DNA of 64,000 nucleotides from Diatrype stigma (lineage: Eukaryota > Ascomycota > Sordariomycetes > Xylariales > Diatrypaceae): assembly GCA_022225965.2 (NCBI GenBank), contig JAKJXP020000004.1:1-64000 (forward strand), written 5' to 3'. Below, one piece after another: positions 11,001 through 60,540 of this stretch. How positions within the stretch are numbered: position 1 is the stretch's first letter; every line of letters starts with the position of its first letter. A model generated the notes under the pieces. It was not told the DNA's origin and made no database searches. It saw nothing but the letters and a program-made list of their open reading frames with translations. Position numbers and translations under genes: made by a program.

Positions 11001-14000
11001 GAGGTATTGAGATTGATAGAAGTTTTACACGATAAGTTTGGTGTGAAAGCTACAATTAAAAAACGTACAAATCCAGGGGGAGCAGTAAAGTGGCGAATAA
11101 GAGTTAGTAGGTTGAGTATGATTAAGTTAGTATCTTTAGTTCGTCCTTATTTTATACCTGAAATGTTATATAAATTAGTGGCGTGCCTCTAAAGAAAATG
11201 GGTAATATAATATGTATTTATTTATTCGAGTTAAAGTGTAATGAATTACTTCCATATGGAGTGAAAATTTATTTGTCTTTAGTTTGTTTATTTAGAAGGG
11301 CTTTCCTTAAACTTCACTCTATGCGAGGATATCCCGCTTTAAGTATTGGTCCACTCAAGAGTTCTTTCGTGTTAGGAAAAATCCAATATGAGGGGCAACC
11401 CGCAGGAAACATGGCGGGGAGGAAGCTCCCCTGCCATGGATCTTCAGAGACTACATGTGGAGCATATATATTGAAGGATAATTTATTTAAGTGATGATTT
11501 ATAGGATTTTTAGAAGGTAAAGGATCGTTTATACTTGATAAAGACAAAAATTTAGAATTTAAATTAGTACATAAATCTACAGATGCCTCAGTTTTATTTT
11601 ATATAAAGAAGAAATTAGGCTTCGGTATTGTACGAATACAGGATAAAGTGAAAAAGAATCATTGTTTTAAGGTAAATGATGTTAAAGGCTTATTAAACTT
11701 AATTTTAATATTAAATGGTAATCTGTTTTTAGATTCTAAAGAAAAAGAATTTAAATTATTAATGGAGGCATATAACGAAAAACACGGAACTACTCTTGTT
11801 CATATTCCTTCGGACAGAAATATTAATAAGCCTGATTTGTCAAACTATTGATTATCTGGTTTTACTGACGCCGTAGGTAGTTTTACTTGTATTATTAAGG
11901 ATAAATCAAATGAAAGCGGTTTAGTTAAATTGAGTTATACTTTATATCAAGAAGGTAATTTTGACCAAGTTAAATATTTAGCCGAAATCTTGAATGGTAA
12001 AACACATTATAATAACGGTATTTACGAAACTACAGTAAATACAACTAAATTGTCTAAAATAATTGTTTATTTAAATATTCATACTTTAAAAACTAATAAA
12101 TCAGTAGATTATTTTAATATAAGAAAAATTTATAATCTAATTAAAGATAAAAAGTCTTTTACAAATGAAGATATAAAACTTTTAACTAAATATAAAAATA
12201 ACTTAAATAGATTAGCTTCGTAAATATCGTAATACGGGTATTTATTTTATACAATATGACTTTTGTGAGGCTCAGTAAAAAAAAATAAGGCGGGCCTTAT
12301 TTTTTTTTTTTTTTTTCGCCAGCCCCCTTTTTTGTATAAATAATATATATGAAGATATAGTCCGAACAGTATTGTGAAATACTGCGTATATTTAATTAAT
12401 GTATATTAAAAATCAACAAATTTTGCCTACTCCAGTTTCTGCATTAATACATAAAAAGTGAGAATAGGTTACTCACTCTTGTGTAAAATAATCAAATTCC
12501 GGGGAAGCCCTAAAGCTATAGTAACCAAAGTAATAAGTAAACTTATTGACTGGCCTGACTAATTACTAGGGTATGGTAATATCACTATAGATGAAGGCAA
12601 CTGAAATGGGTGATCGCGGATCTAAATCAGTATTGCATGAAACCAATACTGTAAAGGAGCAACGAGTAGATGGTTCTTTAGTTATTTTTATTTATATTAA
12701 TAACTATAAGGTGTACTCTAGTCACCGGGAAACCGGCTCTTGGGAGAACTAAGTAGCTCAAGATTAAAGATATCACAATAGCCTTTCCGTAAAGTTATTA
12801 ATATTTTAATTGTTTAAATATTAATAATAGGTTAAATTTGTGGTTCGGCTGCTACCATTCATCCTCTGGGTGGGATCAGAGGGAAAGTGGAAAAAAGTTT
12901 TTTGTTAATCCTATGTTATGTAAGGGAGGTTAATATAGACACTCTGTTAGGATAAAAAAAACTAAACTGCCAAACTCCGGGGAAGCCCTAAAGACAATAA
13001 TACCACCTTATATATAGTGAAAAGTCTAATAATAAGTACCATTACTAATCATAATGGCTGAGGTAATAAGTTATTGTATTAAGGAAACTTAAATGGGTAA
13101 TCGCGGAACTAACCTATACGAAGTATGGAAAAGCGCATCGAGTAGACGGTAGTTGTTGTGGAAGGGAAACTAGAAGCAATTAAGGTGTACTCAGTCTTCC
13201 TTATAGATAAGGAAATAACTTTTCGTCCTTGCTAAATAATTTACTTGTTTTTGCCTGATTTAATAAGGGAGGTCCCTGTAATAGAAGGTAAAAACAGTTA
13301 GAGATGCTAAAGAAAAGATAGGCACGGGTAAAGAAATATAATAATACACCACCAAAGAGGAGAATAACTATAAAGTCAAAACCATTATTAAATCCCTATT
13401 TTGTAACTGGTTTTGTAGATGGAGAGGGCTCTTTTACAATTAGAATTAGAAAAGATAGTAAAGCTATACTAGGTTTCAGGGTAAATCTGGTATTTTCTAT
13501 AGGAGCTCAAGTAAATGTGGAAAATCTTAAATTATTAGATAATCTAAAAGGATTTTTTTTTGGTATAGGTAGCATTAGTAAGGTGGGGGTAATATGTATA
13601 TTTATGAAGTTTCTTCTTTGATTCATTTACATAAAATTAGAAATCATTTTGATAATTACCCTCTTGAATCTACAAAAAAATTCACTATATTTTGTGATGT
13701 AAAGTAATGGATTTAATGTTAAATAAAGAACATTTAACAAAACAAGGTTTTATTAAGATACTTTCTTTTAAAGCTGTGTTTCCTAAGGGGTTGAATGAGA
13801 ATATAACCGCTGCCTTTCCTAATGTAAAGCCAATAACTAAACCTGAATTTAAACCAAATACAGGAAAATTGAATCCTCATTGAATAGCAGGGTTTACTCA
13901 AGCTGATGGTACATTTGGTTTAAGTCCTGTTAAACGAGCTAATACAAAATTAGGCTATAATGCTTTACCACAGTTTCGTATTACACAACATGAGCGAGAT

Positions 14001-17000
14001 GTAGTTGTTTTAAATAGAATTATTCTGACAATGGGTTGTGGTATTCTAATTAAACCTAGTGCAGGAAGAGATAGATATACTATTAATGTTGGAAGTGCAA
14101 AAGATTTAATATCCATTGTTATACCTTTATTTGAACAACATCCATTTTATGGAGCTAAATCTTTGGATTTTAAAGATTTTTGTGCTGGTATGGATATTAT
14201 TAAAAATAAAGGTCATTTAACAAAAGAGGGAATAGATAGAATTATAGAATTAGCCCGCGGTATGAATACTTCAATATATTCCTAGTCTATCTAAATATTG
14301 CCCGGCATGGGATTTATATAATGTTACTGCGCGCGACCCAATAGTCGGGATGCTTTATTAAAAATAAGCGTTCCTATCTTTAAAGGGTATATTTGCCGGA
14401 TCCTTACTTTATAGTTATTTTTTTTTTTATCTGGTTTATATTATTATATGTTGCCGTTGTTTAATGTCGATTAAATAATATAATATCGCTATATGCTGGA
14501 AACTCCTAAAGTCTCAAGTATTTCTAAAGCCTTTAAAGTAGTTGTTTAACTAGTGAAAGTCTTAAGGTTGTTACTTACTTTGTTAGGAAAATCAGCAGGA
14601 AACCTCTGTATATATATGATATTTAGGTTTGTCCTAAGTTATATCATTATTATTATAAAGAGGGTCCTCAGAGACTGCACGCGATATAACTTTTACAATT
14701 TATTTATTTCTTTCCGCCAGGGCTAGAAATAAATGTTTATTATTACACCTTTTTTATGGTAAATAAACGCTTTATAAGTTCTAAAACAAAGGGTAAATTA
14801 CATCCTTGGTTTATAACTGGATATACAGATGGAGAGGGTAGTTTTTCGATTCGTTTACGTACAAAATCTAATAGTCAATTTGGTTTTCATATAAGTATTG
14901 TATATTCTATAGGTGCTGAGCTAAATCCTTTAAACTTAAAATTATTGGAGCAAGTTAAGGAGTATTTTGGTGGAGTAGGTTCAATTAGCAGATCAGGTAA
15001 TATGTGTTATTATGAGATATCTTCTATTAAATCTCTTTTAAATGTTCGTAAACATTTTGAAGAATATCCTCTTCAAACTACTAAATATGTTCATTTTATA
15101 CTATGGTGTCAAGTTATGGATATTATTGAAAAAAAAGAGCATTTAACAAAATTAGGCTTTAATAAAGTATTGTCTATAAAATCTTTATTTCCTAAAGGAT
15201 TATCTGCTAAACTTTTAGAAGTTTATTCTGAAGAAAAAATTTTACCTATTGCTAAACCGATATTTGAGCCTAGTGTTCAAAAATTAAATCCTAATTGAAT
15301 AGCTGGGTTCGTACAAGCTGTAAAAAAAAAAAAAAAAAAAAAAGAAGGCGGCCTTCTTTTTTTTTTTTTTTTTTTTTCGGGACCTTTGGTTTAAATTATA
15401 CCAAACAATCTAGAATGAAATTAGGGTACACATGTCAACCTCAGTTTCGTGTTACTCAACATGAGCGTGATTTAATAGTTTTAAAAAGGATTATTGAATC
15501 AATGGGTTGCGGTACTATGGTGAAACCATCTGAAGATAGAGACAGATATAGTATATCTGTCGCAAATATATCTGATTTAGTCAATATTGTAATACCTTTA
15601 TTTGAACAATACCCTATTTATGGTGCAAAACATAGAGATTTTTTGGATTTTTGCAAAGGAGTATACATTATAAAAGACAAAGGGCATCTGACACCAGAAG
15701 GATTAAAGACTTTGGAGGATTTAGCGTACGCCATGAATACATACAGAGAGTTTTAATGAGCATGTGTTTATGTTATTTTATAATTTTTACAGTATATTCC
15801 TTTATTTTACCCTTTTTAGAACATAGAGCGTTTAAAGTTTGCCGTTGATCGATGTGAATCAATCAATTATTATATCGCTATTTGCTGGGACAACTTTACA
15901 ACAAGTTAATACATATTTTCGCAGCGATGCGTTATAAGATGTATAAGAAAATCTTGTGTCACTGGCCGACATTAGTTGGCTACTGAATGGTTAATCAGCC
16001 GGTAACATTATTAAGCTTTATTAATAGTGAAACCTCAGAGACTGCATGCGATATAACTTTTATATTTAATAATTATTTAAATCAAAAAGTTCTACATAAA
16101 AAAATAAATAAAAAATTTTTAGAGTGATTTATAGGTTTTGTTGAAGGAAAAGGTTCTTTTATAGTGTTAAACAATAAAGTATATTTTGATATCAAGGTAA
16201 GTATAAAAGACATACAAGTTATTTACTACATAAAAAAAGAACTGGGTTTTGGTAAAGTAATGATAAAAAATATGGATCATAATAATCCTATAGGTAGAAC
16301 TGTATCTTTTTATCTTACATCGGAAGAAAATTTTTCTAGATTAGTTTCAATATTTAATGGTAATTTGTGCACAGTTAATAAAAAACCAGAATTTAAAAAT
16401 TGACTGGGAATTTTTAATAATCAATACTCTAAAGATATTTCTTTTATAGATAGAGTTATAAGACCTAGCTTAACTACAGGTTGATTATCTGGTTATATAG
16501 ATGGTCAGGGTAGTTTTATAGGTTTAACTGAAAATAAAGAATTGAACGCTCCTAACAAAACTCTTTATTTGACATTTTCTATTTATCAAAAAGAATTTTT
16601 TATTTTAAAAGATATTAGTGGAGTACTAAATGTTAGTATTAAAAATATAAAATATAATAAAGATAGAAATGGTTGAGTATTAACCATCTCTTCTTTTAAG
16701 GTAATTAAACTAATAGTACATTATTTAAATAGGTATCCTTTAAAAACTAATAAATCTTTGGCTTTCGCTAGATGATGTAAAATATATAACATTATCTTAA
16801 ATAAAGAACATCTTTATTCAATTGGTTTAAATAAAATTTATTATTTGAGTTTGCGCCTAGAAGAAATAAATAAATATAAAAGTTAAAGGTACAGTCCGAT
16901 CCTTAAGGATACTTAAGGTGTGTTATTCAAGAGCAGAATATAATATATATTTACCCTATCCTCTGGGATGTTATTAAGTGGCATGTTTACACGCAGGGGT

Positions 17001-27300: not shown

Positions 27301-28970
27301 AGAGTATGTATTTGAGATTCCTCAGAGACTGTGCGCGAGACAATTATACCTATATAATTATTATAAAATTAAAATTATTAAGTTAGATTGAAGATATAGT
27401 CCGATCATGACTAGTGATAGCATGAATAACATATATTTAAATCAATTATGATCTCAATCCTATATTATTTTTTGTTATTAATCTAGTTTTATTTGCTTCT
27501 CGTTCTACAAAAGGAATAAAACGTTTGTCTAGTTCTGAGAGAGCTTTAATAAGTATACCAGATGATATAAAAGAAATATTAATAGGAATTTTACTTGGTG
27601 ATGCCCACATATCTAGAAGATCCTCTAATGCCAACTCTAGATTGATATATACTCAAACAGCTGTATTACATAAAGCATATTTTGATTATGTATTCAGCTT
27701 TTTTTTACCTTTTTGTGTTAAAGATTATATACCCCAATCTAAAGTTGTTAGAGACAATAGGACTAAAAAAATTTATAGTGCTATATCTTTTACTACTATG
27801 CAACTTCCTTGTTTTAATGAATTCAAAGAAATGTTTTATGAATTAAATGTAAAGAAAATACCAGATAATATTCATGAGTTATTAACTGCTAGAGGTTTAG
27901 CTTTTTGACTTATGGATGACGGTTCTAAACATGGTGATGGTTTACATATTAGCGTATATTCATTTAGTAAGGCCGATGTTGATAAATTGATGTTTACTTT
28001 ACAAGATAAATTTAATTTAAGATGTTCTATTCATTATAACAGGGATAACAAACCCCGTATTTATATATTTAAAGAATCTATGGACACTTTAATAAATTTA
28101 GTTAGACCTTACTTTATTAAAGAAGTGTTATATAAATTAGGGTTATAAAGCGTTATCTTAAAAAAGATCTAGATTTAAGAATTTGATCTACTTCCCTTCT
28201 ATGCTATATTAAGATCTATTCCTAATAAATTATTTGGAGTTATTGCAATGTTCAGTGCTATCTTAGCTATAATGTTATTACCTATTACAGATTTAGGTAG
28301 ATCTAAAGGTCTTCAATTCAGACCTTTGAGTAAAATAGCTTTCTTTATTTTTGTAGCTAATTTCTTAGTGTTAATGCAAATAGGTGCTAAACACGTTGAA
28401 TCACCATTTATAGAATTTGGGCAAATAAGTACTATACTATACTTTGCACATTTTGTATTTATAGTTCCTTTCGTCAGTCTACTAGAAAATACTTTAATAG
28501 ATTTAAATACTTTTAAAGTAGGAAAAATTAAACTGTCTTCAGGTAAAGTACCTAAAGGTATAAGATATTTTCACGCAACCAAACCTCTTTTAATTTATGA
28601 ATTTATAGAACTCTCTACGTTAACCGATGCTTGCATTAATTTTTATGAAGCTAGTAAAGCAGGTTACTCTCAAGCCATAGTTGATTACGCTAATATAAAA
28701 TTAGACTTGCTTCAATATGGGCATACTGATCCTTCTGTTTATCATGATGATAAAACTATACCAGAAAGTGTTAAGGTTGTAGTTGACGAGAAATTTAAGG
28801 CTTATGTGCGTCGCTTAGATGAAGCAAGGGCTAATGATGCAAATGGTCAAGCTATATTAAGGGCTATACATCGTAAGGATGTAATTAATGCTAATAGAGC
28901 TAGTATAACTCCATCTATAATGGAACTGAAAGCAGTCAAATCTGCGTGAGCTTCAATAAATGGAAAATAG
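21383..28970 (+). CDS. cob: Apocytochrome b, five exons, with an unusual C-terminal extension
   Basis: Exons 21383-21583, 23175-23366, 24787-24822, 26802-27195 and 28186-28970, code 4. The product is the membrane core of complex [39 protein letters not shown], the Qo motif PWIGQ, the PEWY motif (split by intron 4) and the end helix ending ENTLIDL. All introns follow a U and end in G. Cytochrome b normally stops about there; here the frame continues for some 150 residues ([12 protein letters not shown]...) that I do not recognise. A diverged copy of this extension lies at 35,925-36,300, so it is not a chance read-through. Confidence 0.93.
21584..23174 (+). other. cob intron 1 (group I)
   Basis: The 5' core at 21,610-21,760 (TGCTGGAAACTC ... 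CAATCAGCAGGGAACC ... CTTCAGAGACTACACGCC ... GATGATATAGTCC) is complete before the ORF. It ends in AAG before ATT ATG CGT. Confidence 0.8.
21852..23132 (+). CDS. LAGLIDADG homing endonuclease with NUMOD1 tail, cob intron 1
   Basis: 426 residues from ATG 21852 with TGA = Trp. The motifs are [14 protein letters not shown] (about residue 32) and [14 protein letters not shown] (about residue 170), both with the catalytic Glu. The C-terminal 60 residues ([15 protein letters not shown]...[14 protein letters not shown]) form a NUMOD1-type DNA-binding helix segment. There is no lesion; it is expected to be active as endonuclease and perhaps maturase. Confidence 0.92.
23367..24388 (+). pseudogene. GIY-YIG homing endonuclease, exon-fused frame split by one frameshift, cob intron 2
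   Basis: The frame from cob exon 2 continues 89 codons into the intron to TAA 23631-23633. From about 23,630 the protein continues in another frame ([16 protein letters not shown]...) to TAA 24386-24388. The GIY-YIG domain reads [20 protein letters not shown] with the [12 protein letters not shown] and [12 protein letters not shown] blocks, followed by NUMOD3-like repeats (MSPETRKK) and a NUMOD1-like end. A one-base indel at CTATAATT would restore one frame. The part from ATG 23657 could still be made on its own. Confidence 0.85.
24389..24786 (+). other. 3' core of cob intron 2
   Basis: Non-coding. It contains GACAGACTGGGTCACTAATG and GGTGGCTGAAATGCTGC with GCACAGTCGG, the 3' part of a group I core. 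Positions about 24,564-24,811, including the first bases of cob exon 3, are duplicated at 31,906-32,128. Confidence 0.75.
24823..25662 (+). CDS. LAGLIDADG type 1 endonuclease, exon-fused, cob intron 3
   Basis: Continuous with cob exon 3 in frame: 280 codons to TAA 25660-25662. The motifs are [13 protein letters not shown] and [14 protein letters not shown], both with the catalytic acid. The start is by fusion to the exon, or GTG/ATG near 24,883. It overlaps the next ORF by 32 nt. Confidence 0.9.
25631..26428 (+). CDS. LAGLIDADG type 2 endonuclease, second HEG of cob intron 3
   Basis: 265 residues from ATG 25631 in another frame. It shows the LAGLIDADG_2 layout: [17 protein letters not shown], the [17 protein letters not shown] block, [19 protein letters not shown] and [16 protein letters not shown]. 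The motif acids appear changed (GNAQ for GDA or GDG; GNGA for GDG or DDG), so cleavage activity is doubtful. It is unrelated in family to the overlapping upstream HEG. The 3' intron core (CAGACTGGTTCATCGG, TGTACAGTCGG) follows at about 26,575. Confidence 0.88.
27196..28185 (+). other. cob intron 4 (group I)
   Basis: Interrupts the Tyr codon of PEWY. Core: CTAATTGCTGGAAACTC, GACAATCAGCAGGAAAC, CCTCAGAGACTGTGCGCG and GAAGATATAGTCCGATC, all before the ORF; it ends TTTG before AT CTA CTT CCC. Confidence 0.82.
27525..28148 (+). CDS. LAGLIDADG type 2 endonuclease, cob intron 4
   Basis: 207 residues from TTG 27525; the frame is open from 27,441, and no ATG is available. LAGLIDADG_2 features: [18 protein letters not shown] and [20 protein letters not shown], both with intact acids (GDA and DDG), and the end [13 protein letters not shown]. 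It looks intact and complete. A non-ATG start would be needed. Confidence 0.88.
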
Positions 28971-31293: not shown

Positions 31294-31330
31294 AGATTAT
31301 GATGTAGTAGGTCTACACTTTGCAGATCTT
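31294..31330 (+). pseudogene. 5' half of tRNA-Cys joined to a cob fragment
   Basis: AGATTAT, GTAGTAGGTCTAC and TGCAGATCT match trnC at 36,696. At GATCT the sequence switches to cob exon 5 (TTCC...TTCTATGCTATTTTAAG). GATCT also occurs at the start of the true exon (TTGATCTACTTCCC), which suggests recombination at this short shared sequence. Confidence 0.8.
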
Positions 31331-31643
31331 CCTTTCTATGCTATTTTAAGATCTATACCTAATAAATTATTAGGGGTTATTGCTATGTTTAGTGCTATCT
31401 TAGCTATATTGTTATTACCTATTACAGGTTTAGGTAGATCTAAAGGTCTTCAATTCAGACCTTTGAGTAAAATAGCTTTCTTTATTTTTGTAGCTAATTT
31501 CTTAGTGTTAATGCAAATAGGTGCCAAACATGTTGAATCACCGTTTATAGAGTTTGGGCAAATAAGTACAGTATTATATCTTGCACATTTTTATTTTAAT
31601 AGTTCCTGTATTAAGTATAGTTGAAAATACTTTAATAGATTAA
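31326..31643 (+). pseudogene. cob: cob 3' end, second copy, frameshifted
   Basis: Nearly identical to cob exon 5 from [11 protein letters not shown] through GQISTVLY. An indel at CACATTTTTATTTTAA shifts the frame; in the restored sense the copy would end IVENTLID and stop (31641-31643), without the long extension of the main gene. It is not linked to upstream exons, so it is non-functional. It shows what a shorter cob end looks like. Confidence 0.88.
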
Positions 31644-35490: not shown

Positions 35491-36303
35491 CTTCCCATCT
35501 AAGCTGTATTAAGATCTATTCCATAGATAGAGAGTCTATCTATGGAGTTATTGCTATGTTCAGTGCAATATTAGCTGTAATGTTGCTTCCAACTACTAAG
35601 CTTTCTTTTTTTTTTTTTTTTTTTTTTAGTGCTAGGATGCTAAATAGATCTCGAGCTAATACTCTTAAGGGAGTGGCTTTTACCTTGGTGGCTAATTCCC
35701 TAGTATTAATGTAATTAGGAGCTAAACATTTAGAATCAACATTTATGTAATTTGGACAAATAAGTACAGTATTATATTTTGTATATAAAGTACCTTTAAT
35801 TAGTATAATAGAAAATACTTTAATAGGTTAAAGTAAATGGAAATATGGTATTGATACAATTTATGCTTGAATATATAAGATTATTTCGGCGTAGCCGCAG
35901 CCAAATCTCTTTCGATATATGAAGGGTTTTAACACCAGTTCTTTTCCGATGCTTGTATTAATTTTTATACAATTAGTAAGACTTGTTACTATCAAGCTAT
36001 AACTCGATATGCTAATATAAAATTAAATATGGCTCAATATGGGGATTTTTATAATTATAGTTTTAATACCGACAGCCATATGCCTGCTGGTGTTAAAGAG
36101 ATGATTAGACCAAAATATGACACCTATCTAAATCATCTTAATGAAGCTACAGATAATTAAGAAAAGGCTGGACGTATGTTGAGTGCGTTACATAGGAAAG
36201 AAGGAGGTAATGTTAGTAGAGCTGAAATAATTCCATCTATAACTGAATTGCATGTAGTTAAATCTGCATGAAAAAACGTTGAATGGAAACTAGTTACATA
36301 TTA
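35491..36303 (+). pseudogene. cob: cob 3' end, third copy, strongly degraded
   Basis: Follows cob exon 5 from [12 protein letters not shown] onward with stops (ATG TAA TTA GGA; TTT ATG TAA TTT), a 22-nt T run replacing part of one helix, and a stop after ENTLIG. From about 35,925 to 36,300 it aligns with the C-terminal extension of the main cob gene (QAITRYANIKLNMAQYG; HRKEGGNVSRAEIIPSITEL; VKSAW), with one TAA inside. It is diverged at protein level, so it is an older duplicate than copy 2. Confidence 0.85.
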
Positions 36304-36872: not shown

Positions 36873-39800
36873 ATGCTTATGCCTGTGTGTATTGTTCAAG
36901 ATCAGGAGGATAGGAATATACATAACAATAATGTGAAAAATGAAGATTTGAAATCTTCTATTAGTATGTGATTTGAACGATGATTTTTATCAACAAACGC
37001 CAAAGATATAGGAACGTGCGCGACACGAGCTCTTACTTGTGTTTTGTTTGTAATATGGTATACAAACTCAGATATAACAGGCGTGTTACTGAATTTAAGT
37101 AATACATATCTGCCCTATGATACTGACATGATTATAGCTAATAACTTGATCATTGTTATAGCAGGTATTAAATGGAGAGTTGGGAATAGTCTGTCGTATT
37201 CCGACAACTCTCTTAAGGGATTCTGACATGGTTACGATGAGAAACTTGATACGCATAGATCGGCATGAGTCAGCCTTACGTCCTAAGCAGAATATCGCGG
37301 CGTAATATCAGTAATTTAAATGCTACAAAGAGATGTTCCGATCTAGGTAGTTGCCTGAAAGCTGAAGGTCACTCCAATGAGGAGAGTAATGAAGTTACAT
37401 ATGTGCAAGAACCTAAATTAGATAAGACCATATCATTAATTGATAAAAATGGCACAGTAAGAGAACTGTCGGATCTAAGCGCCTCTACTTGTAAGCGCAG
37501 ACGGAGTTCAAATAGTAGTCCAGAACGAAAAATTCTGAATTCCCAGACGAAGGAGAACAGTGAAAAAGTGCCAACTAATAAACGAGGGTCTCGTAGTATG
37601 GTCAACAACCAAAACCTACGTATGTTTGTTTTATCAAAGTTGGATCAATATAGAAGTAAAGAGAGTAAATATAACGGTATTATAATAATTCTCGCAGATG
37701 TGGAATTCCTACAATACTGTTACATGTTGATTAAAGGGAAACCCGGGAATATGAGTGCTGGTGTTACAAAAGAGACTCTATATGGCATAACTTATGAATG
37801 ATTTGTAAAAACAGCTGAGGAATTAAAAACAGGTAAGTTCAAGTTCACTCCTGGTCCCCCTCCTGTCCGAATCCTTCGACCCAGGTCCGAGACCGTGGGT
37901 CTGGATCCTTCGACCCAGGTCCGGGACCGTGGGTCTGGACCGCGGGGCCGAGGGGGGAAAAGTGGGGCCGCCGCGCACCCCGAAGGGGAACGAATGGTTA
38001 TTATACCTAAACCTGGAAAAAAGGAAGTGAGTCCTCTGGGGGTTGTAGCCCCTGCACCTAACGGAGTTATGCCCTGCGCACCCCCCTGCGGGGGGGTGCG
38101 CAGGGCAAAAGAAAAAATAGTTCAGAAAGGGCTACAAATTATTCTTGAGACCATTTTTGAACCAAAATTTAAAGACTGTTCTCATGGATTCAGACCCAAC
38201 AGATCCACTCATAGTGCACTAAGACCACTTTACCTAAAGGCCCACCGATTCACGTGAGTCATTCAAGGTGACATCTCCAAATGTTTTGACCGAATACCTC
38301 ATTACGTAATTATGGACCTAGTGAAAAAGGTCATAGTATGTGACAGAACTTTATCTGTCATTAAACAAGCACTTACAGTAGGATTTATTAAGGATAAATC
38401 TAAACATATTACAAATTCAAGCATTGGAACTTCACAAGGTAGTGTTCTTAGTCCTTTATTAGCTAATATTGTACTTCATGAATTAGACGTGTACCTTGAA
38501 GGATCCGTTATCCCAGATAATACTAAAGGAAAACGTAAAAGAGCCAATCCTGAATACAATGTGTTAAGTAATATTAGATATTTCAGGAAGTCAGCTACTC
38601 AAGAAGAAAAAAATTTAGCTCTTAAGAAAATGCTAACACTTCGTCCCCCTCCTGGGGGGGGGGGCCGCTGCGCACCCAGAGGGGAACGAATGGATAATAG
38701 AGACCCTTATTTTGAAAGATCTATGTATCTAAGATATGCTGATGACTTTGTTTTCTTATTCGAAGGACCTATCGACGAAGCACAAGTAATAAAGAAGAAA
38801 ATCAAAAATTTCCTCTTAGATGAAGTAGGATTGGAACTTAATGATGAGAAAACTGTTATCACCCACATGAACAAAGGATTCCATTTCCTAGGAGCACATG
38901 TAAAAAATTTGAGGCATGTTAATTATAGAATGAAAACTAAAACTATCGAAGGTACTCCAATCACCCTGAGAGCTAACGTTAGAGCTAGAATCAATATGAC
39001 TACCGAAATTATGATTGAAAAATTAATTAAGAACAAATTTGCACATAGAAACGTAAGAGGTCTACTATTAACCAACCCACAGACAAACCTAGTAAATCTT
39101 GACCATGCTACAATTGTGCAATTCTATAATTCTAAAATACATGGTATACTAAACTACTATTCTTTTGCTGCTAATAGAATTGAAATACAAAATATTATAT
39201 GAATCCTAAGATTATCATTAGCTAAAACCTTAGCTAGAAAATATAAACTTAGATCTGCAAGACAGGCTTTCAAAAAATTAGGCCCTTATCTTAGAGATTC
39301 TGCGACAGAAACTGAGATATTTATACCTAAATCTCTCCCCACTATACACAAATATAACAACACAGAAATAATTACACCTGCTGCAAAGATACTAGAACCA
39401 ACATTATTTGGTAGACGACTTGCACAGACTCGCTCAAAAAGACGCGTGTTTCTCCCTTTCTCTACGTGGGGAGAGAAAACGGTTTATTAGAAAAATGTGT
39501 TATATGTGATACCTCTACCAATGTACAAATGCACCATTTGAGGACAGTAAAAGATGTTAGAAAAAATGGCTAGCTTGCGCTGCGAAGCCTCCCTCTAGCC
39601 CTGGCGGAGGGATAAAAAAAACTAAAATATTAAATAATGTAAACAACGTGAATAAGTTAATATTTTTTTTATTTTTTTTTCTAGTTGTGCTAGTTTCCAA
39701 CAATCCAATGGAGCAACTCGGCTTTGCCTGATACAGATCCCTTTATGCCAGTACCATCACTCCCTTTATCACAACGTAAAATTACTTAACCATGAGTTAA

Positions 39801-42800
39801 ACCTCGGCTGCTACTAACGCAGTTATGCCCTGCGCACCCCTAAATTTATTTTTTTTGTTATTTTTATTTTTTAATAATATTAGTTGGATAAAATATTAAT
39901 AATTAAAAATAATAAAAAAAAATTAGAGCGCAGGGTTAAATAAAAAAAATTTTTTTAGCCGCCGCCAAGTATAGTAAAAACATGACCGTTGATTAAAAAA
40001 ATGATATGAGTTATGAGCCAGGCTCATAAATAATTTAGAGATACGATACTCTCTTTAACTAAAATATTGATAATACTTCTCATGGCGAGCCGTATGATGG
40101 GAAACTATCACGTACGGTTCTGAGGGCAGTTCGTAGGAGGCTGACCCCTACATTATATTTAATGTTTGCACTATTTTCAGGGTTATTAGGTACAGCATTT
40201 TCTGTACTTGTGCGCCATTGCGCTGTACTTGTGACATTGAGGATTAACCGGCCTCATCGTCGTTCTTCCAACACGACGGCAACATCAAACTTAGTTAGTC
40301 ACGAAAGGTGACTGATGAATCTAGCATGTTTGATAGAAGCATGAACGGAGTGAAATCGGATTATCTCCCTAGTGCAAGTTGCATTTCCTATGATGAAAGT
40401 TGAATTACTTGAAGGATACTTGGAGAGGACCTCTCGAAAAGGGTCTGTGTTTGTCCGTGATCGGCACAGTATAAGATCTTCGAATTTGTGGGTACGATTC
40501 GGAGAAGGAAGTCTTATAACTCGGACTGCGCGCAGCAGTAAAACAGGGAACGTCCCATCTAACGGAATTCGGAACACAAGCTCAGAACTATGGGATTGCC
40601 TAAGGAACCGCATATGTCGGAACTATGGTAACAGAGGATTCATAGTAGGCGCCTCTTGTGATGGGGGGTGACCGAAGGGATCCAGACTATATTCTCAGGT
40701 CAAAAATACGAAGGGGTCCGGGGTCCGGCCAATCAGTTCGGCTCTAACCGAGCAGAACGTAGACCTTCCAAAAAAATACCTGAAACTAATAAACTTTTGC
40801 TCCAACAAACCTTCGGGAATCAAGATTAGCGACATTTACAACCTGATGCTTAACGAGAGAATGTTCGAAGTCGCCTATCATAAATTAAAATCTAACCCAG
40901 GTAACATGACTCCGGGAATTAACCCCTCTACTTTGGACGGAATCTCTACCCAAGTTTTCAAGAAGATCATAATCTCCCTGAAGAACGAGAGTTTCGAATT
41001 CGAACCTGGTCGAAGGGTTGATATCCCCAAAAGCTCTGGGAGTGGTACTATACCCCTTACAATAGCTCCTCCAAGAGACAAAATTGTCCAGGAAGTTATG
41101 AGGATGATTTTGGAGGCCATATTCGAACCCACATTCCTCGATTTCAACCACGGTTTCAGACCTAACAGAGGATGTCATTCAGCTCTCAGACAAATTAAGA
41201 CTCAGTTCGGTTCGGCATCATTCATAATCGAAGGAGATATATCCAAATGTTTCCCTTCTATCGATCACCATCGACTAATAGAACTCATAGAAGAGAGAAT
41301 CAGCGACGAAAAATTTATCAACCTGATATGAAAATCCCTCAGAGCCGGTTATTTGGAATTTCACCAAATACAAAACTCTATAGTAGGTACTCCTCAGGGA
41401 TCCATCATCAGTCCCATTCTCTCTAATGTATACTTACATCAATTCGACGTCTTCCTAGCTAATCTGAAGAGGGATTTCGACAAAGGTACGGAAGCCAAGA
41501 GAAACCCCGAATATCGTAAACTCGAATATCTCAGGTCCAAAGCTCTGAAAAACGGAGAAAACCTCGAAGCCAACAACCAGTTGAAACTAATGCAACAAAT
41601 TCCCTCTAGACTCCCAAATGACCCTAATTTCCGTCGTTTATACGTCGTTAGATATGCTGACGATTGAGTGGTAAGTATCCGAGGATCTCTAAGAGAAACA
41701 AAGGATATTCTCTCCAAGATCGGAGTCTTTCTGAGCGATAACCTTAAACTTAATCTGAGTGATACCAAAACGTTGATAACCAACCCAAGGAAAGACTCAG
41801 CTTTATTTTTGGGTACCCTCATTAAACTCTCTGAGCACTCCACTTTCTACCACGGTCCGCACGGTCAGAGGAAAAAAGCTGTGAGCCAAATTGTTATGGA
41901 CGCCCCTCTGGATCGAATCTTCAAGAAACTGGGAGAAGCTAAATTCGTGAAACCTGGAAGTAGAACAAGTTCACCTCGTTTCCTTTGACTGCATCAGGAT
42001 AAGGACGCAATCATAACACTATATAATAGCGTATTAAGGGGTTATCTAAACTACTACAGTTTCACTAATAATTACGCTCGATTAGCCGCTACTCTGGAAT
42101 GAACTCTGAAGAACTCTTGCATGAAACTACTAGCTGCCAAATTCAATAAACATACAATCGCCAACGTACTAAAGAGTTATGGGAAAAATTTACAAGGGCC
42201 CGATAGGAGAGCCTTTTTCAAACCCTCGTACAAGACCAACGTCTGAGACTTCAAAATTTCTGCCTCGTCGGTTTTGAGCACGATTTATGCTTCGGGAATT
42301 TCAGCAGCCAGTCTTGATAACTTAGCTTGCGCCAAATGTGGCTCGGAAACTCAGGTGGAGATGCACCACGTCAGAATGATGAAGGACTTGAATCCTAAGA
42401 CTTCCGAAGTCGACAGAATCATGATCCGAAAAAGAAGAAAACAAATCCCTCTTTGTAGGAAATGTCACGTCGATCATCACCTCAGCCATCCACCCGGCTT
42501 CGTAAGCAAAAGAAAAAGCTAATCTCCCGCAAGGCACTATTAGCGCGTAAAGTGGACCTAGTCATAATATCAGTTGGAGAGCCGTATGATGGGAAACTAT
42601 CACGTACGGTTCGGGAAAGGGGGATTAGTTCCACATATAGCCTTATCGGGGAAGCCCGAGAAATCGGGACACTCCCTGATGGGGTAGAGGGACTAGTTTT
42701 CCCAGTTCATATAAGAATGGAGCTTAGTGGTCCGGGAGTACAATATATTGCAGATAATCAATTAGTGCGCCGAACGTCCGTAACTGCTTACACAGATTAT

Positions 42801-45800
42801 TTCCTTTATGCCGAAGGTAAGGTAGTCAAAATGTCTACTCTAAACATAGTTATTTTTAATGCTTACCTTGCTATCATAAACTTATTCTCGTCTAGAGATA
42901 TTAAAACCTTTAATATGTTTGGGGGTTTGAATGCCCCTATTCGTAGTAGAGTAACTAACGTTAACCCGAACAATTTATATGGGTTAGTTGCCAGTAACTT
43001 GCGGGCTATTATAGCATTAAAATTGCACCCTACACCTTTATTTAGGAAAAATGGTATAGATTGTGTTAAAGGAATACACCAACAGGCAATTCAATTAAAT
43101 AATTTAGCTCTTAATAAAATCGATCCTTGATGAGTTACGGGCTTTGTAGATGCTGTAAAAAAAAAAGAAAAAATAAAATCTTTAGTAGTCTTTCAAGTAA
43201 ACGTATTAAGTTTAGATTTTACTTTTTTCTTTTTTTTTTCGTGCTTCCATCTGTCCATTACCCAAAGTAGGAAACATAAACTAGGGTGAGAAGTGAGACT
43301 GTTCTTTGCTATATCTTTACACCAAAAGGATTACGAAATATTGGAAAATATAAAATGCTACTTCGGAGTAGGTCAAATTTTAAAACAAGGTTCCAAAGTA
43401 GTTATTTACAAAATTCAATCGGTAAACGACTTTTCAGTTTTAATAGACCATTTTGAGAGATATCCCTTAATGACTAGTAAATATTCTGATTATAAATTAT
43501 TTGTACAAGCACTTCAGCTAATACAACGTAAAGATCATTTAACTCCAGCAGGACTCCAAGAAATTTTATCTACTAGGGCTGCTATGAATTGAGGTGTTTC
43601 ACCTAATTTAATATCAGCTTTTCCTAGTGTAGTTCCATTGGCTCGTCCTACGATTTTGAATCAAGAAGTTAAGGAGCCCTATTGATTGGCTGGGTTCGCT
43701 TCTGGCGAAGGTAGCTTCCAGGTAAAGATCAAGACTAGTGGTACTAACTCTTTAGGTATAAGTGTTCATTTAGAATTTCAAGTAACTCAAGCTACCAGAG
43801 ATGAAAAACTAATTAAAAGTTTAATACACTATTTGGGTTGTGGTCGTCTTGAAAGCCCAAAAAACGGGGTAGCAGTAAATTTTGTAGTCTCAAAGTTTGA
43901 GGATATAACCTATAAGATTATCCCCTTTTTCAATAAATACCCTGTCATTGGGGTAAAGGCTTTAGATTTTTCAGATTGGTGTAAAGTCGCGGAAATGAGG
44001 GAAAGAAAACAACATCTTACTAAAGAAGGGCTAGACAAGATCCGTCAAATCAAAGCAGGTATGAACCGGGGAAGAATAAATTCAACAGATTTACCATCAA
44101 GTAAACGATTAATGTCTACTACTCGGAGTGTAAATAGCGAAGAAGTTAAATTAGATATAGATTTAGCCAGTGTGGTAATAAAACCTTATTTAGATAAAAC
44201 TCATTTAGAAAAAGGGTGCAAGGGAAAAGTCAGACCCGGAATTGGAGTTTTTGGTTCTAAAGTTAACTCTAGTGTAAATATTTATGGTAGCAGGGGAGCT
44301 AAAAAGGGTAGAACGGCTATCCTATATGTTTTAAATTGCCTTCGTGTTTATATAATCTCGGCATCAAAGTTAGGTAAGGGGGAAAGCCCCGAGCTGAACA
44401 CAGCATCTTTGCTAGAAGGAGTTTTTATGACTAACTTAGATGTTCTAAATTACCTCCGAGCCGCTTTATCTAAGGTAAAGGTTATACTACTTGAAGTCTA
44501 CTTAAAAGATGCCTATTTTATCGGGCCTAGTTTAGCTAAGGATTGGACTAGACAAAATGAGTTAGGATTAGATAATTGGATTCTAACTAAAGGACATTTT
44601 TATCGGGGTGTAAAATACACTCATAATTTAAGGAACGGACTACCTAAGGATAAATTAGAAGGAGCAGATAAGTGGAACTTCGGGATTGCCTATAGTCAGT
44701 GATGACCAGGGCAACGGAAGGATCATAGTACAATATATATTTTTTCTCTTGTAAGGCCTGCTTCGCAGGCATTTATATGTAATGAGAATAAATTATTTGG
44801 AAGGGTCCTAGGAAAATACGCGTCTACTTATACTAGGGTTGCTGCTTTTGACAGTATAATTAAATTTAACAGCCAAAGTAGGGTGGATAAACTAAGTGCT
44901 TATAATAAAAAACAGATGTTACGATTTACAAATGTAGCCTTAAACAAAAAAATATATACTAAACTTTATGACAAAAATCTTTATCTACTAGCTAATGATA
45001 TGTTGTACAATAGACCTTGTAAAGTAGTAATTACAGGTATGGAGATATTGTTGTTGAAGGACATATTCGAATGTTCATTATTGCATCCTAATATTTTTGG
45101 GAGAGAGATAAAACTCTTGGATATTTTGGATATAATAATTAAAATAAAAGGAGGGAACTATGAGTTCACAGACTTGAGTCTAAAGGGGGGACCTAAAAAG
45201 TTCACTGTTCTTAATAATTTCTCTGTATCTAAAGATATTCTTTTAATTAAAGCAATGGTCATTTTATTAGAAGCTTTTTATGAACCCTTATTTAACTCTT
45301 TACCTCAAAGCTTTCGTCCTATTCTCTCTACCTATAAAGGCACACCGTGCCCTTCTGGAGGACTTCCTCGTAACGGTAAATGAGCTTATTTACCCATCCA
45401 CTCAGCAAATATCCATGAACATGCTTTAAGGGAGCTTAAGTTAAAATTAAGAGGTGTCAAGTGAATTATAAATGTAGATTTATTTAAATATTTCGAGCAT
45501 ATGGACTTTAATGTATTGATGTCTATTTTAGAATTAAATTTAAAAGACAAAAGATTTTTAGATTTAATAAGAAAGGCCTTAAATGCAGGCCATTTTAACT
45601 ATTTTGGTGTAAAATCTGAACTATCTAATGTCCCTCTTAAGAACTTAATATCTTCGTTATACCCTATACTTATTGATATCTTCTTAGAACGTGCAGATAA
45701 TTATATTTCTTCTTTGGAGTATCAATTCACCAAGATGTCATCTAAAGAGATTAAATTATCTTATGTAAGAGCTGGGGATCAGTTAATTTTAGGTGTAATA

Positions 45801-48800
45801 GGTTCTTATTCGGATTGTGTAAATATTATAAATCTGCTAATAGATTTCTTTAAACAAATTTTGTTTTTAGAGGTGTCCAAGGAAGCTTTTGAGATTATTA
45901 ATTTATCTAATACAAAGGAAGCTTCATCAATAGTTTTATTGGGGGTTCGTTTATCTATTGTAGATCTTAAACTCTCCCCTTTCAATAATGGAATAACGTT
46001 GACAGCCCCTATCAATAGGATTATATCTAAATTAACTAAAGCAGGTTTCTTGAAGGCTAGAAAATCTATACCTAAGTTAACTTGAACTCCCTTTAATAAG
46101 GATGTGATTATCTTTCTTTATCAGTCTTGGTTCCAAAGTATAATGGATTACTACGGTGAGGTAAGAAATAAACATCAGTTGGCCTCTTACTTGAAAAGGG
46201 TGTTAAGTTCTTCTTGCGCTAAACTCTTAGCCTCCAAGTATACACTTTCTTCACAAAGAAAGACGGAGGAGAAATATGGTAGCATATTACAACGATTGGA
46301 TGCTACGTCTACTTCAAATAGTAGCTTTATAATAAATAGTGATTTAGTTCGGGTTGCCAATAGACTAGATAAAGCAAGTAGAAGAAGATTAAATACTATG
46401 TTGTATTTAGTGGAAATTAAGAGATTTAGTTCAAGCAAAGCTAAAGGGCGTAACGAATCAGCCTTACCTACAGAAGGATTAGGAAAATGAGTTATGAGTA
46501 AAAAAGCTTTTAATGTGAAAGCTTATATAGCAGGATTTATCGACGCTGAAGGAAACTTTTTCATAAAAGTAGTTAAAAGTTCTACTATAAGAACAGGCTA
46601 TTCAGTTCAACTTTCATTTGGCTTAATACTACACAGTAGAGAGTTATATTTACTTAAACTAATTCAAGCGGAATTATCAGGAGTAGGTTATATTTCAGAA
46701 GCTATATCTGGGAGAGTTCATTATCAAATTTCAAATATGAAAGATCTCAAGGTATTATTTGCTATTTTGGATGAATTTCCTTTGTTAACTCGGAAAATGA
46801 AAAACTACCGGTTGTTCAAGGAAGCATGACGTATGATATCTAATAAGGAACATTTAACTAAAGAGGGTTTAATTAAAATAGTATCTCTCAAAGCCGCTTT
46901 CAATGATTCAGGTTTATCAGAAAAACTACAGAGAGAATTTCCTGATTTAGTGCCTCTAGCTGAAAAATTTTCACCAGAAGAACAATACGTGGAACATAGT
47001 ATCAAAGATCCTAGTTGATTAGTTGGATTTGCAGATGGAGAGGGTTGCTTTTTTGTTCAATTAAGAAAAGCTGTTGGTTATAAAGTAGGTTACCAAATAT
47101 CTCTAAAATTCCAAATAACTCAGGATACTTTGGATAAGAAGCTTTTACAAAGTATAGTGGAATACTTAGGTTGTGGTAATTATAGAGAAGTAGCCAAGAA
47201 TAATGAAGGTAGATTTGAGGTAGAAAGCGCCAAAGAGATATTAGCTAAAATTATTCCTTTTTTTGATCAATATCCTTTATTAGGTTCAAAAGCCAAGGAT
47301 TGTGCTGATTTTAAACAAGTAGCTTTACTTATAGAAAAGAAGGCACACTTAACTCCGGAAGGTTTAGAAGAAATTCGAAAAATTAAAGCCGGGATGAATA
47401 AAGCTAGAGGTGAAGATTAATTTGTAGTTTAAATTAGTATTATATTTATATTTGTTAAAGTAGAGTTGTAGATGTTGTAATTACTTTAAGCACGAAGTTA
47501 GTATTTTCTGGAGAGCCGTATGAAGGGAAACTTTCACGTACGGTTCGGGAAAGGGGTAGATACTTGCTTACCCAATGGTAAACCTATTGCGAGTTAAGTG
47601 GTTTCTACTCTAGTTCACTACAATAGTATTATAACGGCACACGCCATACTTATGATATTCTTTATGGTCGAAAAAAATTTTTTTTTGTATTAAATATTAA
47701 ATCGCAACCTTCTCTAGACATAGGGATAGTAAATAATAGTGATAACCATGATGCTATAATAACAGGTAACAATAATGATGGCGCCCTCCGGAGAAAATTC
47801 TAAAAAACCTGAAGATAAGTATGTTAAAGTTTTGGTAGATGATCCTTTTAATAATAGAGACATTATACTAAAAATAACTAAAAAGCAAAAAGGGGTTTAT
47901 ATTTGAGAGAGTTTAGATGGTAAACAAATGTATGTGGGTCATTCTATTAATTTGTATAATAGAATAAGTTCTTATTTTACGCCATCTATTCTTAAGACTA
48001 AAGCACGTAGAGTTTTACGTTACTTAAATAAGCATGGTTTTAGTGATATAAAATTAACTATTTATATTATGGATAACAACTCTAGTTTAGAACAAGTAGT
48101 AGAATTAGAGTAACATTTTATTGATACTTTAAACCCAAACCTTAATGTGGATTTAGTAGCTAATATAAAACAAATTGTTACTTATACACAAAAGGACAAA
48201 GATCTAGCTATTAAAGAAAACGGGGGTAAATCTGGTGTGTACCGTTGAGTAAATACTTTAACTGGAGATACTTATGTAGGGTCAGCTGTTTCTTTATCTA
48301 AAAGATTTAGTACTTATTTTTCTACCAAAAGTATAAAAGAGGTACTTAGTAGATCTAACAGTAATATTCTAAGTGCTCTCCTTAAGTATGGTTACTCAAA
48401 CTTTAATTTAGAGATCTTGGAGTATTGTAAACCGAGTCAAACAGTTTTTAGAGAACAACATTATTTAGATCAATTATCGCCTGAATATAATATTTTACAA
48501 GTCGCAAGTTCATCTTTAGGTAGGTTACACACAGAAGAGACTAAGCTAAAAATTAGTAATTCACTAAAAGGTAGACTTCATGCGGAGGAAGTGAAAGAAA
48601 AAATGAGTTTATCTCGTAAAGGTAAAATTTTTTCTGTAGAAACCAAAAAGGTTCTAAGTGAACTACGTAAAGGTAAACCTAGTCCCTTTTTAGGTAAAAA
48701 ACACTCTGAACAAACGAGAATAAAAATGAGTGAAGGGATAGGTTCTAAATTAGAAGTTTTTAATAAAGATACTTCAGAAACTAAAACTTATCCTTCTAAT

Positions 48801-51800
48801 ATTAAAGCAGCAGAAGCTTTAGGCTGTAGTGAGTATACTATTCGTTATTACCTTAAACTCAATAAACCGTATAAAAATAAATATTTATTTAAAAAGATGG
48901 ATCGAGTTTAAACAATGTTGTTTTCAAAGTATGCATGTTTATTAATATATATGATATTTGCATGATAATACTTAAAAGATGAATAGGTAAACTTTTTAAT
49001 TAATATTTGTTCATTTTGGTTATTATTTGACCTTGTTGTTATTACTATTATAGTCTATACGCTATCTAGAAGATATAGCTGAATTTAAATTAAACAAAAA
49101 AAAAAGGCATGGCCGGGTGAGGTAGAAATATCTCACTTACTTTTCACTATGTGCTGGGACATCTTTAGAGCTTTTGATACTAGTACTGCAGACTTTCGGA
49201 ACATGTATGTAGACGAAGATTAAGTACAGTTAAAATTCAAAAGATTAGGTAATCAGCTGGAAACCTAAAATAAAGGGTAGACTTGTATAAATTTACTTTC
49301 ACATAAGTACCTCCAACTGGGTATTCAATAATATCTTACAGGGATATAACTATGTTTAGTTTTTGTAAGAGATATCCGGGAAAAGCTGGCAAAAATTTTT
49401 CAATAATTTTTTTTGGATCTTCAGAGACTATACGTGAAACACCTCATTAATATTATGTTAAAGGTGAAGATATAGTCCAAGCATTAACGAAAATTAAGGA
49501 ATAAATGTATGCCGTTTTTATGTTGATTTTTATTATCAGTTACGCTTTCATACGGTCTTTTTGATGCAAGCTTTGTTAGAAATAAAGCAATTTCCTTTAG
49601 CAATTTTACTTTTGTATCTAATAGTTCAAGGATTAATTATCGAGGTAGAATAGGGGTTTTATTTCCATCCTATGGCAGTTATTTACTTAAAGTTGGATAT
49701 GGTTCTGTGTGTAGTATGCGTATGTTCCATGGTTATGCTTCTTCGCTCCAAAAAGCCAACTATAATGAGAATGAACCAACTATTATAGATGACGATCTTC
49801 CCAAATCAGGGTGTTTGGATTCTGTTACCTCTAAGCCGGCGTCACTTCATCCTCAATGGGTAACCGGCTTTACTGATGGTGAAGGAAGTTTTAGTATAAG
49901 TGCTTGAAAATCACAGACTAAAACAGGATGGAAATTTAAACACTTGTTTACCATAGCTGTACATAAAAAAGATCAGATGATCTTGGAGTTAATAAAATCC
50001 TTTTTTGGTGGATATGGTGAAATATATAAACACAGTAAAGACAGTCTTCAGTATGTAGTTGCTTCTAAAAAGGATTTAAGAATGATTATTGATCATTTTA
50101 ATAAATATCCATTATTAACACAAAAACAAGCAGATTTCGAGCTATTCAAGCAAGCTGTAGAAACAATGGAACGTGAAGAACATTTAACCTTAGAAGGGGT
50201 TCATAAAATTGTAGGTTTAAGAGACATAATGAATAAAGGGTTAGCCTTGGGGCAGAATTAAAACTCGCATTCCCTTCTATGGATTATGCTCAAAGACCTT
50301 TAGTAATTGGCCCTAAAATTATGGATTCTAATTGAGTAACAGGATTCGTAGCTGCTGTAAAAAAAAAAAAGAAGGCGGCCTTCTTTTTTTTTTTCGGGTT
50401 GTTTTTTTGTTAGTATTTTTAGAAGTAGTGCAATATTAGGTAAAACTTCAAGATTAGTTTTTAAACTTACTCAGCATTCTCGAGATGTTGAGCTAATGAA
50501 TAGACTAATGAAATTTTTTGGAGTAGGAAAGATTTATAAAAGCCGTGATACTGTATGTTTACATATTACCAAACTTGAAGATATAAATAAAAAAGTAATT
50601 CCGTTTTTTGAAAAATATAAAATAGTAGGGGTTAAATTAAAAGATTACTCTGATTTTAAAAAAGTAGCTGAACTCATGAATAATAAAGCGCACTTGACTA
50701 GTGAGGGTTTAGAAGAAATACATAACATTAAAGTAGGTATGAATAAAGGAAGATTGTAAATTTTTATAAATTCTTATTATTTTGATTTTTCATCAAATAA
50801 GTTGCGCAATAATAGGAATAAGGCACATCCGTATGTAGCTTTTTAATCAAGTGCAGTGAGCATTCAAAGTATAAGGTAATTAGCCGGAAACCTTAGATAA
50901 AGGGCTCACTGCAGCGTTAAACACTTTATTTAACAGGGATCTTCAGAGACTACGTGTGAAATACCTTAGTAAATAGTATAATATTTAGTGGGCTCCGCCC
51001 TCAAATAGTATATTATTTAAAGGTAAAGATATAGTCCAACGTCATTAAAAACTAATGATAAAAAAAAATAATTATTGTTAGATAATAATAAGAAGCATGC
51101 CAGTTGTCTTTATTACATATTTAGTAGGTTGTACTTTTAATGTTAGAGATATTTGAGGTTATGTTATCTTTTTTCTACTTTTTCATTTGTAAGTGTTATC
51201 ATAAGACTTTTAAATCATTTATATCCTACCTATCGTTTAAGACCCAAAAATAGAGTTTGTATTCATAGTAATAGTTATTTTAATGTTACAGGTAAAAGAA
51301 ACTTCAGTGCTGCTAAGGGAAACTCTAAAAAAGGCTCAAGAAAAACTTTAAGTTCACAAGAGTCAAAACCATATGAGGATTTATATACAGGTAGAGGAAT
51401 ACCTAAAAATGAACCAATTTGAGTAAAGGATAATGGTAAAGAGAGAAGTGCATTTGGAGCTTCTTGAGCCCAAGAAGCTCCAAATAGAATACCATATCCT
51501 TCTAACTATCCTTGTGATTATATTAACATACCGGATCCTTATAATAATAGGAAATTAATTAAAGAAACCTGTAAAGGGAATCGTGTTGTGTATATTTGAA
51601 CTTATATTCCCACGGGAATATGCTTAGTAGGGTTTTCATCTAATAGTGTTGAAAGAGTATTAAGTTATTTTGAAAAGAAATATTTATTCTTAGACACTAG
51701 AAGAGGTGTTAAGTTCTTAGCAGATTATGGGTTTATAAATGTAAATTTAACTATAATTTATTTCGACTATCGTAAGACTACAGCACGAGATATGAAAATT

Positions 51801-60424: not shown

Positions 60425-60471
60425 CTCCCCCCCCCGCACTCCTGCGGGGGGGGGGGGGGGGGGGACGAAAG

Positions 60472-60540
<69 letters not shown>
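60425..60540. repeat. C/G run and ~70-nt A tract at the end of mitochondrial sequence
   Basis: C and G runs flanking CACTCCTGCGGG are followed by an A tract broken only by one TT. Upstream is mitochondrial intron sequence; downstream is balanced nuclear sequence. A homopolymer of this size is a common place for misjoining. Confidence 0.85.

Follow-up and report, generated by a model that had tools for sequence, protein, structure and literature searches.

A dead reverse transcriptase fused to an endonuclease

The 64,000-nt stretch of Diatrype stigma DNA analysed here (contig JAKJXP020000004.1; hereafter the window) carries, near the start of cox1, a group II intron whose open reading frame (ORF) fuses a catalytically dead group II reverse transcriptase (RT) and its maturase domain X to a LAGLIDADG homing endonuclease (LHE) at the C terminus, the C-LHE. 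A second LAGLIDADG domain, the N-LHE, is inserted ahead of the RT. We consider it about two-thirds probable that this cox1 group IIA-type intron retained its RT/maturase but gave up retrohoming in favour of DNA homing.

From the cox1 exon to the C-LHE, a single frame of 1,569 codons (42711-47417, genetic code 4) runs free of TAA and TAG, as the sequence-only reading had held for 42,711-47,420; from stop to stop it extends over 42459-47420 (1,653 codons). At the local base composition, an open frame of this kind has a probability of about 10^-43; the two remaining plus-strand frames contain 160 and 139 stops. Profiles recovered both the RT fold and domain X, the pair that marks a group II RT/maturase; at the YADD catalytic motif, the protein reads AGDQ. 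This replacement and the loss of the PQG block had been noted correctly; the accompanying claim that the middle 800 residues keep the RT block order needs correction, in that about residues 460-735 are not RT. Profile searches of the code-4 translation returned Intron_maturas2 and the LAGLIDADG pairs; Pfam RVT_1 gave no listed match on the window protein, whose RT was identified from other profiles and from the fold. In a first structure model covering RT-X-C-LHE (predicted local distance difference test (pLDDT) 62.7), the fold search was dominated by the C-LHE; RT-X modelled alone gave a pLDDT of 66.2.

The C-LHE carries two LAGLIDADG motifs (GFIDAEGNF and GFADGEGCF) with their catalytic acids, and its predicted fold is that of an I-OnuI-type LAGLIDADG endonuclease. 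Flanking of a dead RT by LAGLIDADG domains in one group II intron frame, as proposed from the sequence, is supported; the description of both ends as full double-motif proteins holds for the C-LHE, with both catalytic Glu, and fails for the N-LHE, in which a hairpin insert breaks motif 1.

A family of dead reverse transcriptases

Relatives were sought with the whole protein and with its RT-to-C-LHE part. Each search scored about 8,000 candidates and listed nine relatives; the lists overlap, and the second closes with three live RTs. The relatives are protein records without genomic context, except L009, which is metagenomic contig DNA. Searches of viral_contigs for further DNA relatives, with a single sequence and with alignment A1, gave only the same one contig (L009, L041); no relative came from P0009 in viral_contigs or from A1 in genome_contigs.

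Twelve members reach motif C (window, P0002, P0003, P0004, P0005, P0007, P0008, P0010, P0014, P0015, P0016 and L009); P0006 ends short of the RT. YADD is present in none of the 12, compared with all seven of the live RTs compared. The C-LHE is found in nine of the 12, being interrupted in L009 and cut short in P0010, and P0005, P0015 and P0016 stop ahead of it. Every C-LHE that reaches them retains both catalytic Glu. The L009 frame is broken within the C-LHE by short inserts at about 11700-11974 and 12497-12557. In the tree, the dead RTs formed one clade (100/100, stem 1.21) near live cox1-type RTs such as P0011, with 81/97 for the wider grouping. The dead RT, X and C-LHE are the conserved core of this family.

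The sequence-only reading had suggested that the protein may be a captured transitional or hybrid state; with 12 sequences bearing a dead RT, it belongs to a conserved family and is no unique case. The same domain order recurs over the whole length of P0003 (1,712 aa, 46% in alignment to the window protein) and, in its parts, in L009. A further protein, P0009, is compact (1,158 aa) and consists of a LAGLIDADG pair, a dead RT with YSNN for YADD and a changed motif A Asp, X and another LAGLIDADG pair. Its LHEs have their nearest counterparts outside the window family and its RT sits on a very long branch, so P0009 may well have acquired this order independently; the tree alone cannot settle it.

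Purifying selection on the dead domains

Ratios of nonsynonymous to synonymous substitution (dN/dS) were estimated between the window and L009 by the Nei-Gojobori method with 1000 codon bootstraps. The first half of the C-LHE, which aligns poorly to L009, was excluded, as were comparisons of P0011 with two L009 ORFs (36 and 40% alike, dS saturated). The ratio was 0.30 for the RT (0.20-0.43; 312 codons) and 0.37 for X (0.19-0.70; 125 codons), with 0 of 1000 bootstraps at or above 1 in both cases. Values for the N-LHE (0.23, 0.15-0.34; 298 codons) and the second half of the C-LHE (0.35, 0.21-0.60; 155 codons) were similarly low. The pre-RT segment (0.39) and the linker (0.40; this segment stops inside the first C-LHE motif) had 11 and 15 of 1000 bootstraps at or above 1, and the flanks of the N-LHE had 35 (N-flank, 0.56) and 19 (post-N-LHE, 0.53). 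In the translated ribozyme part, the ratio of 0.74 (95% bootstrap 0.36-1.72; 121 codons; 248/1000 at or above 1) was not distinguishable from 1; dS was low there (0.13), which fits constraint on the RNA.

Thus, in the single pair compared, purifying selection acts on RT, X and C-LHE. Since YADD is lost in both the window and L009, constraint on the RT acted after that loss. The earlier suggestion of selection on the whole frame was borne out for RT and X, where constraint goes beyond frame keeping and a maturase role is the likely reason, and not for the ribozyme read-through. Among diverged members, X is more alike than RT (57% vs 45%; 15 pairs of six sequences).

The N-terminal endonuclease

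The N-LHE fails as a LAGLIDADG domain with two motifs and their catalytic acids, its motif 1 Glu being displaced by the hairpin insert, and it is probably inactive as an endonuclease in the window genome. Its low dN/dS indicates that selection acted on it over much of the period since the window and L009 split. In L009, the N-LHE (frame 5372-11770) has a catalytic Glu replaced in frame by a different small change, GEG of motif 2 reading WWPMG.

Nine sequences cover the N-LHE site in domain I. The N-LHE is present there in four (window, P0003, P0006 and L009) and absent in five (P0002, P0004, P0005, P0007 and P0010), where DYFLY or the like passes directly into IISASKLG. P0004 has another N-LHE further on, with a different best match (P0083, 90%). 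GIY-YIG domains occur in the frames of P0004 (two stretches), P0005 (one), P0010 (two) and L009 (two). Beside the GIY-YIG inserts of P0004, P0005 and P0010, there is an apparent second, diverged copy of part of domain I. The N-LHE is a passenger in the domain I hairpin loop and probably arrived later than the rest of the fusion. The two endonucleases are not equivalent: the C-LHE is a fusion common to the family, the N-LHE a separate insertion.

The hairpin in motif 1 belongs to a set of A-run/T-run elements (window 15305-15380, 43140-43250 and 50342-50400; L035 at about 8791). A loose pattern for them gave 43 matches on the plus strand in 214,859 bases of the organism's own mitochondrial DNA (mtDNA)-bearing stretches; most, though not all, are palindromes with two recurrent cores. 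Four elements were recognised in LAGLIDADG ORFs, all at the motif 1 catalytic Glu codon (the others were not checked systematically), and 41 intact motifs turned up in that scan. These elements may be small mobile elements that target LAGLIDADG coding sequence.

Intron boundaries and ribozyme

The intron has the GUGYG 5′ end, the AY 3′ end and the pairing of exon-binding site 1 with intron-binding site 1 (EBS1-IBS1) of a group II intron (Table 1). The next cox1 exon, YNSIITAH, begins at 47619, giving the in-phase junction ...ADNQL-YNSIITAH.... Rfam identified domain V at 47511-47576 (RF00029, 63.2 bits). The L009 exon end is identical and so offers no covariation for EBS1 or EBS2. Further sub-threshold Rfam matches within 42400-47800, to plastid domain V families and to snoRNA, lncRNA and miRNA models, are attributed to domain V echoes or chance. 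A GGA linker precedes domain V, which is a feature of IIA1 introns (PMC13190283; the papers cited here were available in part, and what we say of them holds for those parts).

Table 1. Features of the cox1 intron, its ORF and the preceding intron ORFs in the window
Feature	Position	Strand	Basis or remark
RT (YADD)-X ORF, open frame, of the group II intron before that of P0011 (P0012)	37259..39487	+	live comparator
RT (YADD)-X-HNH ORF, open frame, of the preceding cox1 group II intron (P0011)	40063..42519	+	live comparator
cox1 exon, 54 nt, IRMELSGPGVQYIADNQL	42711..42764	+	in frame with intron ORF
Group II intron, 4,854 nt, 5′ GTGCG ... AC 3′	42765..47618	+	
Domain I 5′ strand up to the hairpin loop taking the N-LHE insert (GATTAT...ATAATC stem)	42765..42809	+	fold of two flanks; insert-free site in relatives
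Insert in domain I loop, with N-LHE and fast-evolving flanks	42810..44351	+	
N-LHE, LAGLIDADG pair	43116..44090	+	motif 2 intact (43692-43718), motif 1 disrupted
A-run/T-run hairpin insert in place of N-LHE motif 1 catalytic Glu; edges approximate	43155..43241	+	DNA gap 43156-43239 vs L009
Remaining ribozyme domains I-III, translated in frame; domain IV boundary approximate	44352..44740	+	
Candidate EBS2, TTATCT	44466..44471	+	pairs with exon AGATAA; same site in L009
EBS1, TAATTG	44573..44578	+	pairs with IBS1 CAATTA at exon end; same site in L009
Catalytically dead group II RT domain	44913..45980	+	motif A Asp kept; PQG block lost; AGDQ for YADD at 45771-45782
Domain X (maturase)	45981..46310	+	Pfam Intron_maturas2, 5.1e-20
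C-LHE, LAGLIDADG pair, I-OnuI/I-SmaMI type	46524..47417	+	both catalytic Glu present
Domain V	47513..47546	+	
Domain VI and intron 3′ end	47547..47618	+	fold; stem longer than Rfam match

Locus and assembly

The first 60.5 kb of the window have the look of fungal mtDNA, and the window's G+C content is 33%; a morel origin was weighed and rejected, morel mitogenomes having 38-48% G+C. At about 60.5 kb, the mtDNA joins a P450-like gene across runs of A. Long T, G and A runs at 3-82 and 60446-60540 border the mtDNA, with the apparent P450 gene after them, and the assembler probably joined mtDNA to nuclear contigs. Outside this locus, the COX1 matches in the assembly amount to three later exons, all on contig C67. 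The whole-protein search of the assembly found no second copy of the cox1 intron; the locus is therefore most likely mtDNA, badly joined.

Three consecutive group II introns lie near the cox1 start (37259-47618), two with a live RT and the third with the dead one. Elsewhere in the window, apparent repeats of the 3′ part of cob, about 78-92% alike, lie at 28191-28461, 31328-31598 and 35544-35835. An Rfam scan of 12 further mtDNA stretches showed rRNA pieces, tRNAs and additional introns.

Relation to known systems

Yeast aI1/aI2-type cox1 proteins have the order RT-X-HNH. Compared with this type, represented here by P0011, the window protein has LAGLIDADG in the place of HNH and has lost YADD. 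The spliceosomal protein Prp8 consists of a dead group II-type RT with thumb/X, followed by an endonuclease-like domain, and is kept for splicing; the window protein resembles it in the succession of dead RT, X and endonuclease domain.

Fungal group II introns with LAGLIDADG comprise 13 families, including rns-952, rnl-2059, cox1-381 and cox1-926, and all 753 group II-LHE introns surveyed lack a recognizable RT/maturase (PMC13190283). Like them, the window intron has an LHE inside a fungal mtDNA group II scaffold, recognized here by domain V, whereas the survey also required a full DI-DVI model. Both cox1-381 and cox1-926 are IIA1 introns in which the domain IB loop houses the LHE, a placement very similar to that of the N-LHE in the window intron. 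By contrast, the window intron has RT-X fused to the C-LHE and so departs from the lack of an RT/maturase, a trait reported for all 753 rather than a stated criterion. It also keeps a candidate EBS2, absent from cox1-381 and cox1-926, and its site, after codon 54 from the MW start in P0005, does not appear to match either of those two, whose numbering was not mapped.

Introns with LHEs and degenerate RTs have been treated as separate kinds (PMC4424553). In MatK and other degenerate RT/maturases (trnK intron, nad1I4), RT motifs are lost, X is kept and a splicing role is presumed, as here; the available text of that source describes no endonuclease behind X in MatK-type proteins, whereas the window protein has a LAGLIDADG pair there. 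The closest precedent for the combination is Ceratocystis nad2 i5, a group IIA intron that apparently encodes both an LHE and an interrupted RT (PMC8208691). It lies in another gene, its RT is interrupted by another intron, and the accessible part of the report describes no conserved single fusion or YADD loss. Secondary invaders insert in frame into resident intron ORFs (PMC12308204), a GIY-YIG has been seen inside a group II intron (PMC8393795), and no RT remnant was found in Ulva IIB-LHE introns (PMC13026550); in the portions available of the papers named so far and of PMC6279837 and PMC4570212, no RT-LHE fusion is described. In the literature searched, with most subscription journals outside it, no RT-LAGLIDADG fusion is described, PMC13190283 and PMC8208691 coming nearest. 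The earlier statement that no protein of this order is known therefore holds within that literature, tempered by the Ceratocystis case, and a dead RT and an LHE in one fused protein are new relative to the survey, with this one partial precedent.

Proposed mechanism and alternatives

In the course of events that we propose, the ancestor would have encoded an ordinary RT-X-HNH protein, and an I-OnuI-type C-LHE, fused in frame, would now occupy the place of the C-terminal HNH. Such a swap is likely because P0011, the nearest live relative in the window, ends in HNH where the LHE sits. The RT active site would have been lost before the known relatives diverged. Translation would proceed from the cox1 exon through domains I-III and be followed by protein processing; translation of RT-X and C-LHE that starts in the exon would explain why the frame stays open across all inserts. 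The dead RT and X would bind the intron RNA and aid splicing as MatK does, and the C-LHE would cut intronless cox1 alleles, leading to copying of the intron by DNA repair. Judging from homology and constraint, selection most likely retained the dead RT as a matK-like maturase.

Several observations weigh against this mechanism. The dN/dS values come from a simple method and a single pair, one partner of which, L009, is a metagenomic contig. For the only live RT from the same genomes that could be compared, the ratio was lower, at 0.17 (0.12-0.23) with a nearly saturated dS of 1.46; the dead RT may thus be less tightly constrained. X does not exceed RT in conservation in the close pairs (72% vs 80% for window-L009, 77% vs 80% for window-P0002), nor is its dN/dS lower, which counts against the simplest matK picture. 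The window N-LHE is broken and the L009 C-LHE frame interrupted, so parts are decaying in places. The 12 members include close, in several cases near-identical, pairs (P0004/P0010, P0015/P0016, P0002/L009 and window/P0014) and are thus not a count of independent cases. Replacement of HNH by LHE is deduced from position only, and maturase activity from homology.

Were the dead RT junk, its frame would be open only since the downstream C-LHE must be translated from the exon. The whole frame is indeed in phase with the exon, the RT motifs are eroded, the N-flank, post-N-LHE segment and linker are likewise open under weaker or less certain constraint, and the close pairs show no greater conservation of X than of RT. 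However, frame keeping alone predicts an RT dN/dS of about 1, against the values observed for RT and X, and X stays more alike than RT among diverged members; we regard this explanation as unlikely. Somewhat less probable still is that the C-LHE itself is the maturase, like some group I LHEs, in an immobile intron with RT-X as a relic. Some LAGLIDADG proteins do act as maturases (PMC8393795), and the interrupted C-LHE of L009 would agree with this, but the two catalytic Glu, kept in every C-LHE that extends to them, should be needless for splicing, RT-X is constrained, and a group II LHE from Leptographium failed to promote splicing (PMC4424553).

Whether the N-LHE travels with its own nested group I or group II intron bears on the insert. 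Nested introns are known in fungal mtDNA (PMC12308204), and the apparent partial domain I copies in some relatives with GIY-YIG inserts would suit a twintron; yet Rfam at E<=5 gave no group I match within 42400-47800 and no group II match beyond domain V-VI of this and the preceding intron, and the insert occupies a hairpin loop and has fast-evolving flanks, which makes a twintron improbable. That the frame is an assembly artefact or nuclear mitochondrial copy seems very improbable: the junction with the P450-like gene and the dependence of the frame at the N-LHE hairpin on homopolymer lengths would favour it, but the same order is found in independent records (P0003 and L009), the other COX1 matches of the assembly are the later exons on C67, and the whole-protein search gave no second intron copy.

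Implications

More tentatively, and at less than even odds, group II intron proteins such as this may form a stable class, in which the RT, its catalysis abandoned, was retained as a splicing maturase and mobility passed to a fused LAGLIDADG endonuclease. The class would be the intermediate missing in the model of mutual exclusivity between RT/maturase and LHE and an independent parallel to Prp8, and would have arisen at least twice, here and in P0009. With RT/maturase and LHE in one polypeptide, the LHE was gained at a time when the intron still had its RT/maturase frame, and the part surrendered is the RT active site rather than the maturase domain. The intron offers a system for telling apart what splicing requires and what mobility requires, since its relatives have between zero and three endonuclease genes in front of the RT. 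The finding also bears on how a mobile RT can turn into a splicing protein, as has been inferred for MatK and Prp8.

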